Translations under genes and position numbers: made by a program | DNA from: Wohlfahrtiimonas sp. G9077 | GTDB taxonomy: Bacteria > Pseudomonadota > Gammaproteobacteria > Cardiobacteriales > Wohlfahrtiimonadaceae | Direction: 5' to 3' | DNA length: 64,000 nucleotides | Assembly: GCF_002252155.1 (NCBI RefSeq) | Contig: NZ_NEFD01000002.1 | Location: 248,001 to 312,000, forward strand | The notes under the pieces: model-generated | What the model was told of the DNA's origin: nothing | What the model saw: only the letters and a program-made list of their open reading frames with translations | Databases searched by the model: none | Shown here: in pieces, positions 2,963 through 56,517 of the stretch | Position numbering within the stretch: the stretch's first letter is position 1 | Layout of the letters: each line of letters starts with the position of its first letter

Positions 2963-3766
2963 ATGGGAGAGCGCATGCGGGTTTTGGTGATTGGTTATGG
3001 CGCAATGGCAAAAGCAGTGTTGCAAGCTTTGCCAGAGGGAATGTTTGTGACAGGCTTGGTGGTGCGTCAAGGCAATGAAAAAGCTGTACAAAATGAGGTT
3101 GGCCGCTCGATTCAAGTGGTGTCAAACATTGATGAGATTCAAAATGCGCCAGATGTTGTGATTGAAATGGCAGGGCAAAGCGCTTTGAAAATGCATTTGC
3201 CCAAAGCCATGACATTTGGCGTGCCCATTGGCATCATTTCTGTGGGGGCATTTGCCGATGATGATTGGCATCAATCCATGCTGGATTCAGCGCGTGTTTA
3301 TGGCAGCCGCTTGCACATTTTATCTGGTGCAATCGCAGGCGTTGATGCATTGAGTGCGGCAGTTTATGTAGGATTAGATGAAGTGATCTATCAAGGCAGA
3401 AAGCCGCCGGAAGGCTGGTAAGGGAGCCATGCAGAACACTGTGTGGATTTGGCTCAATTAACTGAAGCGGTGACATTTTATCGTGGTACGGCTAGGGAAG
3501 CGGCAACACTGTTTCCGGCCAATACCAATGTGGCGGCAACGCTTGCACTGGCCGGCATTGGCATGGATCAAACAACGGTGGAGCTCACTGCAGATCCAAG
3601 CATTGGCCGCAATCAACATTGCGTGACAGCCCGCGGCGCATTTGGTCAATTGACAGTGATGATTGAAGGTGAGCCGTTGGATGATAATCCCAAAACTTCT
3701 CAATTGGCTGCCATGAGCGTGGTGCGTTTTTGTCATGATTTGATGCGGCCAATCGTGATTGCATAA
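2963..3766 (+). pseudogene. nadX: L-aspartate dehydrogenase, interrupted by an in-frame TAA
   Basis: Read through a single stop, this is a full-length (about 267 residue) aspartate dehydrogenase, which makes iminoaspartate for NAD synthesis or runs in reverse for aspartate synthesis. The N-terminal Rossmann motif is VIGYGAMAKAV. The central part has VGAFADDD and GAIAGVDALSAA. The C-terminal part has NTNVAATLALAG and TADPSIGRNQH. The TAA at 3419-3421 follows YQGRKPPEGW, where the family normally has W-K-G; one A-to-T change of AAA would produce it. The downstream half continues in the same frame with GSHAEHCVDL and has no other lesion. The true start is more likely the ATG at 2975, since GGGAGA precedes it. 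Decayed gene, recoding or sequence error cannot be separated here. Confidence 0.85.
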
Positions 3767-3780
3767 TGATTGGGGCAATA

Positions 3781-3808
3781 AAAAAGGTCGACTTAGTCGA
3801 CCTTTTTT
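3781..3808. terminator. Bidirectional intrinsic terminator
   Basis: A perfect stem AAAAAGGTCGAC / GTCGACCTTTTT with a three-base TTA loop, flanked by A-run on one side and T-run on the other. It lies between the convergent aspartate dehydrogenase gene and pntB and can serve both strands. Confidence 0.9.
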
Positions 3809-7330: not shown

Positions 7331-8710
7331 TTATTCGTCTGTACCCGCCATATTGTTATAGTCGATGGTGGTTAAATTTGCAAAGCGAGAGTACTTTCCT
7401 TGGAATGCAAGTTTAACGGTACCAATCGGACCATTACGCTGTTTCCCAATGATGACTTCTGCAACGCCTTTGTCTGGGCTCTCAGGATTGTATACTTCAT
7501 CGCGATAAATAAAGCAAATTAAGTCAGCATCCTGCTCGATGGCGCCAGATTCACGTAAGTCACTCATAATGGGGCGTTTATTGGGGCGCTGCTCAAGGCT
7601 TCGGTTGAGCTGTGAGAGCACAATCACCGGCACTTCTAATTCACGGGCCATGAGTTTGAGAGAACGAGAGATTTCAGACACCTCAGCAACACGTTGATCG
7701 CCTAAGCCCGGCACTTTCATCAATTGTAGGTAATCCACCATGATGAGCCCTAAATCTTTCTCTTCACGTTTAAGACGACGGGCACGGGCACGCATTTCAG
7801 AGGGGCTTAAGCCGCCCTGATCATCAATAAAAATGCGTGTTTGGTTCAGTTGCTTGGTGGCAGAAACCAAGCGCTGCATCTCATGGGCATCTAGACGGCC
7901 AGAACGCAAATTGGTCTGTTCAATGCGCCCAAGCGATGAGAACATCCGCATCACGAGCTGTTCTGAGGGCATCTCCATACTGAACACAGCGATCGGTTTT
8001 TTAGTCGACAGCGCCACAGCCTCAACAATGTTCATGGCAAAAGTGGTTTTACCCATCGATGGACGGCCTGCAACCACGATCATATCGCCATTTTGTAGGC
8101 CTGAGGTCATGTTATCAAACTCAGTCCAGCCTGTGGGCGCCCCAGTGATGCCATCTTCAATTTTGCCAAGTTCATCCAAGCGCTGAAGAGAGGCTTTTAA
8201 TACGGTATTGATGCCCACTAAACCTTCACCGGCTTTTGAACCTTGTTCTGCGATGGCAAAGACGCTTTTTTCCGCATCTTCGAGCATCTCTGCGGTGGTT
8301 TTACCGTCGGGATTAAAGCCTGTGTCGACAATTTTTGACCCAGCACCAATGAGTTGGCGGACAATGGAGCGATCACGAATGATGTCAGCGTACGCCGTGA
8401 TGTTTGTGGCACCGGTTGTTTCTGCAGCAAGCATTGCCAAATAGGTGCGTCCACCGGCATCTTCTAATTTGTTTTGCTGTGCTAAGTGATCGGCCACCGT
8501 TAAAATGTCGATGGGCTTACCATCTTCGGCAAGGGCATGAATGGTGGTGAAAATTAAACGATGATCCCCACGATAGAAGTCAATGGCATTGATGCGCCCA
8601 TCAATGCGTTGCCAACCGTCTGCATCATAAAGCAAAGCACCAAGCAAGGCTTGCTCTGCTTCTATGGAGTGCGGTGGGATTTTAAGTTGTTGAATTTGTT
8701 GATCATCCAT
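7331..8710 (-). CDS. dnaB: Replicative DNA helicase DnaB
   Basis: The hexameric 5'-3' helicase of the replication fork, loaded at oriC and partner of DnaG primase. The N-terminal domain starts with KIPPHSIEAEQALLGALL, the family signature. The RecA-like C-terminal domain has Walker A VAGRPSMGKTTFAMN, FSMEMPSEQLVMRM, Walker B-like LIMVDYLQLM, and SDLRESGAIEQDADLICFIYR with the arginine finger region. I chose the ATG at 8710 (459 residues) over one at 8764. A TATAAT at 8781-8786 would leave almost no leader before 8764, and the shorter form fits the family better. An in-frame start at 8764 would add 18 residues. Confidence 0.95.
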   Translation of the reverse strand: MDDQQIQQLKIPPHSIEAEQALLGALLYDADGWQRIDGRINAIDFYRGDHRLIFTTIHALAEDGKPIDILTVADHLAQQNKLEDAGGRTYLAMLAAETTGATNITAYADIIRDRSIVRQLIGAGSKIVDTGFNPDGKTTAEMLEDAEKSVFAIAEQGSKAGEGLVGINTVLKASLQRLDELGKIEDGITGAPTGWTEFDNMTSGLQNGDMIVVAGRPSMGKTTFAMNIVEAVALSTKKPIAVFSMEMPSEQLVMRMFSSLGRIEQTNLRSGRLDAHEMQRLVSATKQLNQTRIFIDDQGGLSPSEMRARARRLKREEKDLGLIMVDYLQLMKVPGLGDQRVAEVSEISRSLKLMARELEVPVIVLSQLNRSLEQRPNKRPIMSDLRESGAIEQDADLICFIYRDEVYNPESPDKGVAEVIIGKQRNGPIGTVKLAFQGKYSRFANLTTIDYNNMAGTDE

Positions 8711-43702: not shown

Positions 43703-44149
43703 ATGTTACAAAAAGGTTTTACATTAATTGAGTTAATGATCGTTGTTGCGATTATCGGTATTTTATCTATGTTTGCATTGCCTGCATACCAAGATTACAC
43801 AAAACGTACCTACGTTGCGGAAGGTTTAGGCTTAGCCTCTGCTGCGAAAATGGCTGCTACTGAATACTACTCTTCAGAAGCTAAATGGCCAAAAGATAAT
43901 CCTGCAGCAGGTTTGCCAGATAAAGCTCAGATCAAAAGTGGTGATTCAGTAAAATCTGTTGAATTAAAGTCAGATGATGGTGAAAAAGCAGAATTGATCG
44001 TCACATATGGTAAAAAAGTGGAGGATAATAGCAAGATTACTTTAGTGCCAAACGCAGCAGCAGGTTCAGTGACTTGGGTGTGTGACAAAACAGGTACGAA
44101 TGTACAAACAAAATGGTTACCTTCTAACTGCCGTGATCAAGTTAAATAA
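43703..44149 (+). CDS. Type IV pilin, class A copy 1
   Basis: A 148-residue type IVa major-type pilin. The five-residue leader MLQKG precedes the processing site, giving mature N-terminal Phe and the invariant Glu5 in [16 protein letters not shown]. The first 45 residues are the same in all four copies. Class A marks are SAAKMA, EYYSSEA, a SGDSV stretch, and [12 protein letters not shown]. The C-terminal disulfide loop should join C127 and C143, ending in [15 protein letters not shown] precedes the start. It should be processed by PilD and assembled by PilB/PilC. It is nearest the sigma-54 promoter, so probably the most strongly expressed. Confidence 0.93.
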
Positions 44150-44206
44150 ATATTTGATATGAAATTGAACTTTCAATTCATTTTATTTAAAAATAAGGAA
44201 TAAGAG

Positions 44207-44743
44207 ATGTTACAAAAAGGTTTTACATTAATTGAGTTGATGATTGTTGTTGCCATCATTGGTATTTTGTCTATGTTTGCATTGCCTGCATACCAAGATT
44301 ACACAAAACGTACCTACGTAGCGGAAGGTTTAGGCTTAGCCGCACCTGCAAAAATGGCAGCAGCAGAATATTATGCCTCTGAAGCATCATGGCCACTCAC
44401 AAATGAAAAGGCTGGTTTGCCAGCGCCGGACAAGATCAAAGGACAATCTGTAGAAGGACTTGGATTAGTGGGTGGAGGTTATGCAAACTCAGGTTCAACC
44501 AAAGGTGCGGCAGCAGGTAAAGATGTGACAAACATCGTTATTTTTTATAATCAAAAAGTTGCTGAGAAAACGAATACGGTTCCTGCTGATGGAGCTGTCG
44601 CAGGTACGGAACTAGGGACATTGGTGATTGCACCAGTTGATGGTAGTACAACGGGCTCAATTGAATGGGCTTGTATTAAGCAAACTGGATTAGAGCTCAA
44701 ATGGTTGCCAAGTAATTGTCGTGAAAAAGTACCAACGGCATAA
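44207..44743 (+). CDS. Type IV pilin, class B copy 1
   Basis: A 178-residue pilin, the longest of the four. The leader and hydrophobic helix are the same as in the other copies. After residue 45 it switches to class [29 protein letters not shown], then a glycine-rich [21 protein letters not shown]. The predicted disulfide loop is C156-C171, with KWLPSNCRE. It follows the first copy by 57 bases, which contain a small hairpin (AATTGAA/TTCAATT) without a strong T-run, so cotranscription is likely. Confidence 0.92.
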
Positions 44744-44769
44744 TAATATCAATAATCGAGGAATTTAAT

Positions 44770-45255
44770 ATGTTACAAAAAGGTTTTACATTAATTGAGT
44801 TGATGATCGTTGTTGCGATCATCGGTATTTTATCTATGTTTGCATTGCCTGCATACCAAGATTACACAAAACGCACCTACGTTGCAGAAGGTTTAGGTTT
44901 AGCCTCTGCAGCAAAAATGGCTGTCACAGAATATTACTCTTCAGAAGCCAATTGGCCATTAAATAATACAGCTGCAGGTTTACCAACTGACACCGATATT
45001 TCAAGTGGTGATTCTGTAACATCCATTACAGTTAGTGCTACGGAAGTTAAGGATGGTTTAAATACAGATCCGAAAATTACGATTAAATATGGTAAAAAAG
45101 TAGCTGATGGTAAAATTATCACTTTAGTGCCAAATGCAGCAGCAGGTTCAGTGACATGGACGTGTTCTGCAAAAGATAAGGAAGTTACTGTACTTAAAAA
45201 ATGGTTACCATCTAACTGCCGTGATCAAGCAACTAATGCACCTACAAAATATTAA
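44770..45255 (+). CDS. Type IV pilin, class A copy 2
   Basis: A 161-residue pilin resembling the first copy: SAAKMA, EYYSSEA, the AAGLP and SSGDSVTSI stretches, and [14 protein letters not shown]. The disulfide loop would be C132-C150, with [11 protein letters not shown]. It begins only 26 bases after the previous pilin, with a GAGGAA site. Its central part (about 85-118) differs from copy 1 in sequence and length, as expected of surface-exposed loops. Confidence 0.92.
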
Positions 45256-45329
45256 TCAGTACCGTAATAAGGTTACTTTCTAGATTTTTGTGATGAAGCA
45301 ATAAAAACTTAATACATAAGGAATTTAAT

Positions 45330-45848
45330 ATGTTACAAAAAGGTTTTACATTAATTGAGTTGATGATCGTTGTTGCCATCATCGGTATTTTGTCTATGTT
45401 TGCATTGCCTGCATACCAAGATTACACCAAACGTACCTACGTTGCGGAAGGTTTGGGCTTGGCAGCACCTGCAAAAATGGCAGTGACAGAATATTATGCA
45501 ACAGCTGCTGAATACCCTACCGATAATGCTAAAGCTGGCTTACCAGCAGCCGGTGATATCAAAGGGCAAAGCGTTACGGGTGTTGGTATTGGTAAAGATG
45601 GTATCGTTGTTGTAACTTACGGGACTAAAGTAGTTAAGAAAGAAGCCAAGCCTGTCGCTAACGCAACCACCGGTGCAACACCTGTGTTAGGTTCTATCAC
45701 ATTAACACCAGATGCGACCTCGGGTTCTGTGACATGGAAATGCTCGCATTATAATGCGGATAGTACAGATAGTGATGATGGTTTGAAGAGTAAATGGTTG
45801 CCATCTAACTGTCGTGCAACAGCAAACGGTAAAACAGGAACACCATAG
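45330..45848 (+). CDS. Type IV pilin, class B copy 2
   Basis: A 172-residue pilin of the same class as the second copy: [27 protein letters not shown]. The disulfide loop is the longest, C138-C161, enclosing an Asp/Ser-rich stretch (STDSDDG) before KWLPSNCRA. The gap before it is 74 bases; the ribosome-binding region AAGGAATTTAATATG nearly repeats that of copy 3. A strong terminator closes the array. Confidence 0.92.
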
Positions 45849-55188: not shown

Positions 55189-56517
55189 ATGTCCACAGTT
55201 TTTGAAAATACAAGCACATTTAATGCGGCCGAAAATGCCGCTCCAACCAATTCATATACGCGTGTTGCTTTTGCGAGTTTCATTGGCACGGCAGTTGAAT
55301 TTTATGATTTTTATATTTTTGGTTTGGCAACAGCATTATTTATTGGGCCACTCTTTTTTCCATCAACAAGCCCTGAAGCACAATCATTATTGGCCTTTTT
55401 GACCTTTGGTGTGGCATTTGTGGCTCGTCCGGTGGGCTCAGCAATTTTTGGTCATTTTGGCGATCGCATTGGGCGTAAAACTACGTTAGTGGCCTCCTTG
55501 TTAATCATGGGAGTCAGCACCACATTGATTGGATTTTTACCTACATATTATTCAATTGGTTTTATGGCACCAATTTTATTGTGTTTATTACGCTTTGGAC
55601 AAGGTTTAGGATTAGGCGGGGAATGGGGCGGTGCAGCTTTGTTGGCTACAGAAAATGCGCCAAAAGGTAAACGCGCTTTATTTGGTATGTTTCCGCAATT
55701 AGGTCCACCAGTTGGATTCCTTGCCGCTTGTGGCATTTTTATTTTCATTGAACAGACATTAAGCAGTCAAGCCATTAACAGCTGGGGATGGCGTGTTCCT
55801 TTTATTTTGAGTGCAGTTTTAGTGATTGTAGGGTTATATGTACGATTAAGTATTATTGAGAGCCCAGCTTTTAAAAAATTAGAAAAAAACAATGATCGCG
55901 CACAGGTTCCACTCTTTGAAATGTGCTCTAAGCATATGCGCATGTTGGTATTAGGCTCAGTCAGTATGGTTGCGTGTTATACCATTTTCTTTATCATCAC
56001 AGTTTTTTCTTTGCAATATGGCACCGTGACTACAGGTGCATATTCTCGTACAGAATATTTGGTGATGTTATCGATTGCAGTTATCTTTATGGCTGTGGCC
56101 AGTCCAATTTCTGCACTGTTGTGTGATCGTTACGGACGTAAGCCAATTTTTATCATCAGTTATTTCATCATTATCGCCGCAGGATTACTGTTTGGTAGTG
56201 CCATTTTAAGTGGCAGCACAGTTTTAACAACGTTGTATTTATCATTTGGTTTATTTGCCATGGGTTTTAACTTTGCGCCGATGGGTGCATTTTTACCTGA
56301 AATTTTCCCCACAAATGTGCGTTATACAGGTGCATCAATGACCTATAATTTGGGTGGAATCTTAGGTGGCTCAGTGCCGCCATTTATCATCACCTATTTG
56401 ATGGGATTTGAAAAAGGCATCGATTATGTGGGGTATTATTTAGCCATTGTGGCAGTGATCAGTATGATTGCCATTTTGATGACGAAAGAGACGCGTCATG
56501 TGGATTTGATGGATTGA
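55189..56517 (+). CDS. MHS-family MFS transporter (ShiA/KgtP/ProP-like)
   Basis: A 442-residue inner-membrane symporter with twelve hydrophobic segments. The metabolite:H+ symporter subfamily is shown by FIGTAVEFYDFYIFG in the first segment, GHFGDRIGRKTTLV (loop 2-3), LCLLRFGQGLGLGGEWGGAALLATENAP, WGWRVPF and the second-half CDRYGRKP. Substrates in this family include shikimate, alpha-ketoglutarate, citrate and osmolytes such as proline; the sequence alone does not choose among them. It is monocistronic between two terminators. Codon use looks somewhat more AT-rich than its neighbours, which may mean later acquisition. Confidence 0.88.
   Translation: MSTVFENTSTFNAAENAAPTNSYTRVAFASFIGTAVEFYDFYIFGLATALFIGPLFFPSTSPEAQSLLAFLTFGVAFVARPVGSAIFGHFGDRIGRKTTLVASLLIMGVSTTLIGFLPTYYSIGFMAPILLCLLRFGQGLGLGGEWGGAALLATENAPKGKRALFGMFPQLGPPVGFLAACGIFIFIEQTLSSQAINSWGWRVPFILSAVLVIVGLYVRLSIIESPAFKKLEKNNDRAQVPLFEMCSKHMRMLVLGSVSMVACYTIFFIITVFSLQYGTVTTGAYSRTEYLVMLSIAVIFMAVASPISALLCDRYGRKPIFIISYFIIIAAGLLFGSAILSGSTVLTTLYLSFGLFAMGFNFAPMGAFLPEIFPTNVRYTGASMTYNLGGILGGSVPPFIITYLMGFEKGIDYVGYYLAIVAVISMIAILMTKETRHVDLMD

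Follow-up and report, generated by a model that had tools for sequence, protein, structure and literature searches.

A gene for aspartate dehydrogenase, nadX, lies near the beginning of the stretch of DNA analyzed here (64,000 nucleotides of Wohlfahrtiimonas sp. G9077, hereafter called the window), and it is interrupted by one in-frame stop codon. This raises the question of whether the stop is present in the living strain and, if so, what it would mean for the synthesis of NAD. The genome that carries the window comprises 2,099,247 bases in 14 contigs. We infer that its nearest relative among the genomes compared (G001) is strain DSM 18708 of the fly- and wound-associated species Wohlfahrtiimonas chitiniclastica. 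The DNA of this relative aligned with the window over 60,968 bases at a mean identity of approximately 92.7% (seven BLAST pieces, including three short pilin pieces); therefore, we regard the window's species as a sister of W. chitiniclastica. Woh60147 (JBLRMF000000000), an isolate of clinical origin that has been reported as an unclassified species, shows an ANI of 93.06% to W. chitiniclastica DSM 18708 (PMC12229853), and another report suggests a further possible new Wohlfahrtiimonas species (PMC5782874). We found no literature treating Wohlfahrtiimonas together with 'aspartate dehydrogenase', and the Wohlfahrtiimonas papers containing 'nicotin-' words include none, by title, on NAD needs.

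The interrupted nadX gene

Two open reading frames on the forward strand, at 2963-3421 and 3443-3766, belong to a single reading frame that is broken by the TAA at 3419-3421. The preliminary description had reported the codons TGG-TAA-GGG at 3416-3424, in a frame common to both halves of the gene, and this was correct. The first half matched positions 2-149 of the 263-position NCBIfam aspartate dehydrogenase model NF009828 with 152.8 bits, and the second half matched positions 151-262 with 169.6 bits. Each half alone is under the model's cut-off of 177 bits, whereas the protein read through the stop scored 337.6 bits and as a whole belongs to the family, with only the TAA at 3419-3421 interrupting the frame across the two NadX domains. 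With 114 codons of conserved family sequence lying in frame behind the stop, the match is not a matter of chance. Given that the halves share a frame and that a single model position is missing between them, a frameshift was ruled out, and the change is a nonsense one, as had been claimed. The gene resembles the known NadX family (NF009828; PF03447 and PF01958; solved structures 2DC1, 1J5P and 1H2H) in that its two halves cover almost the entire model; unlike that family, it stops after 148 residues.

The whole interrupted gene spans 2975-3766 on the + strand. The part before the stop, delimited by family models and by comparison with the sister species, lies at 2975-3418 (148 codons) and holds the NAD-binding domain (Pfam NAD_binding_3). 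The premature TAA at 3419-3421 is evident from the sequence and from comparison with relatives, and the part after it, placed by the family models at 3422-3766, consists of 114 codons with the Asp_DH_C domain (Pfam) and the normal TAA. Translation probably starts at the ATG of 2975 and not at 2963, since in the sister species the corresponding ATG is closely preceded by an in-frame stop. A Shine-Dalgarno-like GGAGAG is seen before this ATG, at 2966-2971, and is common to the sister species. A scan for promoters and terminators around nadX gave counts close to those of shuffles. The genome contains one copy of nadX, and no second copy was found in it.

Occurrence and origin of the stop codon

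NadX exceeded the NF009828 cut-off in 13 of the 32 genomes of the order, all 13 of which belong to the window's family. None of the 12 other NadX genes has a stop at the window's site, so that the gene is interrupted where its relatives are intact, as in a pseudogene. Eleven of these 12 are free of stops. The remaining one (G002) carries a single TGA, located at the extreme C-terminal end, and its frame is open through the window's stop site. Within the genus, nadX is open at this site in all five other genomes. Only the window's copy is stopped in the gene body. The earlier claim of a single nonsense change in an otherwise intact gene stands. Two conserved, separate proteins with this break in related genomes had been named as an observation that would speak against it; no such arrangement was seen in any of the order's 12 other NadX genes.

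The preliminary description had further derived the stop from a lysine codon, by a change of AAA to TAA in a family motif W-K-G, and here it was not supported. Among the 13 other aligned sequences (those of the 12 genomes and one MAG contig, L010), the stop column is mixed, with Lys in nine, Gln in two and Arg in two. Among the five congeners, Gln is found in the nearest relative (79% identical) and in one further genome, Lys in two and Arg in one. To derive TAA from a glutamine codon would take an equally short change and would fit the nearest relative better, so that lysine is not the best guess.

Within the family, a NadX above the cut-off is lacking in five of 18 genomes, although one of the five is only 80% complete, and therefore nadX may be dispensable in some relatives. 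In the order as a whole, NadX was found over its cut-off in 13 and NadB over its own in one of the 32 genomes, and 18 have neither; judged from these matches, the aspartate-based entry into NAD synthesis is patchy in the order.

Sequence conservation and age of the stop

All of the 75 positions that are invariant in the 13 other NadX sequences are kept in the window, 32 before the stop and 43 after it, which is a further likeness to the family. They include the G-x-G-A positions of the nucleotide-binding motif, close to the N-terminus, as well as N and H in the N-x-H stretch, the histidine of which we take to be catalytic. In relative-rate tests with G003 or G002 as the outgroup, the unique changes of the window and the sister numbered 8 versus 11 (p 0.65) and 8 versus 13 (p 0.38). 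With the invariant positions unchanged and the rates even, the gene does not display the relaxed constraint of a pseudogene. If the gene has been neutral since the stop arose, the lack of any change at invariant positions sets a bound on the age of the stop, which is under approximately 4%, 12% and 18% of the branch for dS values of 0.83, 0.30 and 0.20, respectively. A long-standing pseudogene was ruled out by this conservation test. Since the gene is undecayed apart from its stop, the stop would be either very young or not real, that is, an error; very recent loss and error, both among the options named in the preliminary description, are the leading readings.

The undecayed state of nadX is equally expected if the stop is an error, and this counts against a natural mutation. 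We rank a natural nonsense mutation first, as the most likely reading, and an error second. In the latter reading, which we consider rather improbable but worth weighing, the stop is an artefact of sequencing, assembly or culture passage, and nadX is intact in the living population. The absence of further decay in nadX and the open site in all five other genomes of the genus are in its favor, but the stop is a clean substitution, not an indel in a long homopolymer. In addition, we compared open reading frames of at least 100 codons in both directions, which flagged six of the 74 matched frames of W. chitiniclastica and seven of the 80 matched frames of the window. These were nadX, two genes at the window edges, one gene with a shifted start, and frames lying over longer ones (judged by overlap). 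Thus, nadX is the only flagged frame that is not edge-cut, start-shifted or overlapping a longer frame (judged by position), which argues against an artefact and indicates that the assembly is not generally poor in the window. The type of event is ordinary either way.

The gene is more diverged from the sister species than most of its neighbors: the window's NadX is 79% identical to that of the sister, compared with median protein identities of 97.7% one way and 97.2% the other. The dN/dS of nadX is 0.159 versus a median of 0.052, a value that four of 56 other genes reach or exceed, and its dS against the sister is the third highest of 58. Together with the family genomes that lack NadX, these results count against our main reading. 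The medians of the substitution rates were taken over 57 rows; the three rows of nadX, four pilin genes in tandem (matches of approximately 50%) and one unmatched gene were left out, and dN/dS covers 56 rows, as one gene is without synonymous change. Along the DNA, the identity to W. chitiniclastica is 99% at 2801-2900, 69-86% at 3001-3800 and 93% from 3901. This divergence could mean that nadX is under weaker constraint in the genus, or that alleles have been exchanged with a different lineage. By the relative-rate test, which was even, the copy in the window does not stand out. A helicase gene further upstream is likewise diverged, with 73-95% identity over 1601-2700.

Possible bypass of the stop

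If the stop is real, could it be bypassed? One possibility is that a suppressor tRNA or programmed readthrough passes the stop at a useful level, so that full-length enzyme is made. The conservation of all invariant positions after the stop would be in keeping with this, but a TAA-reading anticodon is absent among the 46 tRNA matches of the genome (30 read as loci, 15 from contig stretches and one in the window), which thus offer no suppressor tRNA. This set is incomplete, given that no isoleucine anticodon is listed among the 46. TAA is moreover the commonest stop in the window, ending 34 of the 57 compared genes, two of them with TAAG as in nadX, and a recoded TAA was ruled out on this basis. 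To our knowledge, UAAG is not among the leaky readthrough contexts, and the stop does not recur in any of the 12 NadX genes compared with the window's. Therefore, we regard readthrough as unlikely, with only a small chance of being correct.

Another possibility is that the two halves are translated separately and form a working split enzyme. It is true that the stop separates the two Pfam domains, and that an in-frame GTG at 3443-3445 (+ strand), the first start-like codon past the stop, follows soon after it, with a purine-rich AAGGGAG at the stop itself. However, this purine stretch is also found in the intact sister nadX, and it ends 16 bases before the GTG, which is too distant for good Shine-Dalgarno spacing. 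Four in-frame start codons occur as far as base 3560 (at 3443, 3449, 3470 and 3530), and by eye none of them has a well-spaced Shine-Dalgarno sequence. None of the order's 12 other NadX genes is split in this way. Split translation is thus unlikely as well, and we give it very little weight. A structure prediction for the intact W. chitiniclastica NadX, made from a two-row alignment, had a mean pLDDT of 56.8, with values below 50 over residues 117-242, and it was set aside as too poor for judging the position of the break.

We also considered the idea that the stop is fixed in the species and is put to use. Readthrough or restart would then supply aspartate dehydrogenase at a low level that can be adjusted, with nicotinamide riboside covering the rest. 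This seems highly improbable to us; if it were true, the sole entry into NAD synthesis would be held low at the level of translation.

Genes for NAD synthesis and salvage

The consequence of the stop had been said to depend on whether nadB is present elsewhere. Within the limits of a model search, the answer is negative: L-aspartate oxidase NadB was found over the TIGR00551 cut-off in none of the six genomes of the genus. The sole match to nadB in the window's own genome is SdhA, which scored 986.2 bits to sdhA_forward versus 349.8 bits to nadB (cut-off 452.75), and it was rejected. A 545-residue FAD protein of G004 was likewise rejected as nadB, being below each of the 25 curated cut-offs listed (28 families matched); G005 has a similar FAD protein.

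A check for nadA had been proposed together with that for nadB, and both nadA and nadC exceeded their cut-offs in all six genus genomes. In the window's genome they are open and lie as neighbors in divergent orientation, and nadA is adjoined by a gene encoding an NrtR-type winged helix. Palindromes of the form TATACTCANNNTGAGTATA lie between nadA and nadC, at 7678-7696 and 7767-7785 of L113 (contig 1 of G000), one of them with one mismatch; the number expected by chance is 0.01. Similar palindromes were seen by eye in G001-G004. No palindrome of this type was found in the window, with up to three mismatches, or in the 10-kb stretch around nadR and pnuC.

No nicotinate or nicotinamide phosphoribosyltransferase was found in the six genus genomes with TIGR01514 or with PF04095, the latter of which we take to cover nicotinamide phosphoribosyltransferase. 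In 14 control genomes, these two models matched in five and six genomes and exceeded their cut-offs in two and six, respectively. PnuC-type transporters and NadR were over their cut-offs in all six genus genomes. In the window's genome, nadR (L111, 3374-4606) and pnuC (L111, 4616-5302) are nine bases apart and both open, and NadR, which exceeds the TIGR01526 cut-off, has HTH and AAA_28 domains.

Judged by these searches, NadX looks like the only recognized entry from aspartate to quinolinate in the genome. Given that neither a nadB over the cut-off nor a nicotinate or nicotinamide phosphoribosyltransferase was found and that nadR and pnuC are present, the stop should cut this entry and leave the salvage of nicotinamide riboside. 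These results bear on the possibility of an artefact in both directions: the loss of what appears to be the sole quinolinate route would be costly where no precursor is supplied, as would fit an intact gene in the living population, but the existence of a salvage route (nadR, pnuC) argues the other way.

Predicted consequences and relation to known systems

Taking these points together, we think it probable that a very recent natural nonsense mutation has truncated NadX, cutting de novo NAD synthesis and leaving nicotinamide riboside salvage. In the proposed sequence of events, a nonsense mutation would have arisen very recently at 3419-3421 in the only gene found in the genome for the conversion of aspartate to iminoaspartate. 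Translation would most likely end after 148 residues, so that the NAD-binding domain is kept and Asp_DH_C is lost. If the stop is real in the living strain, as we infer, the truncated NadX is presumably inactive and the strain would make no quinolinate of its own; NAD would instead be obtained from nicotinamide riboside through PnuC and NadR. It is possible that iminoaspartate is reached by an enzyme or reaction outside the models used, and this counts against our explanation.

Host-associated bacteria are already known to lose genes for de novo NAD synthesis. If the stop is real, the present case would be an early-caught loss of the only recognized entry from aspartate to quinolinate, with the remaining pathway still intact. 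It would also predict that growth is rescued by quinolinate or nicotinamide riboside and not by nicotinic acid, a nutritional prediction helpful for culturing a poorly known group. If the stop is not real, the finding amounts to a single wrong base.

A missense change in nadA is reported to give nicotinic acid auxotrophy in E. coli NC101 (PMC8207962). Our case is similar in that a small change breaks the steps from aspartate to quinolinate and another source of NAD is present. It differs in that the affected step is the dehydrogenase NadX, not NadB or NadA, and in that no nicotinate phosphoribosyltransferase was found in the window's genome, so that nicotinic acid should not rescue growth. The function of NadR is described in a further report (PMC7221760). 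As in this known NadR-PnuC salvage, the nadR and pnuC-family genes are adjacent here and NadR is over the TIGR01526 cut-off; unlike it, the route is proposed as a fallback for a broken nadX, and its substrate is predicted.

Other features of the window

Two further differences from W. chitiniclastica were observed in the window. A gene for a major facilitator transporter at 55189-56517 is unmatched in the corresponding 80-kb stretch of that species. In addition, four tandem type IV pilin genes (Pfam Pilin) at 43703-45848 are approximately 50% identical to their W. chitiniclastica matches, and they possibly represent a pilin array or pilin variation.
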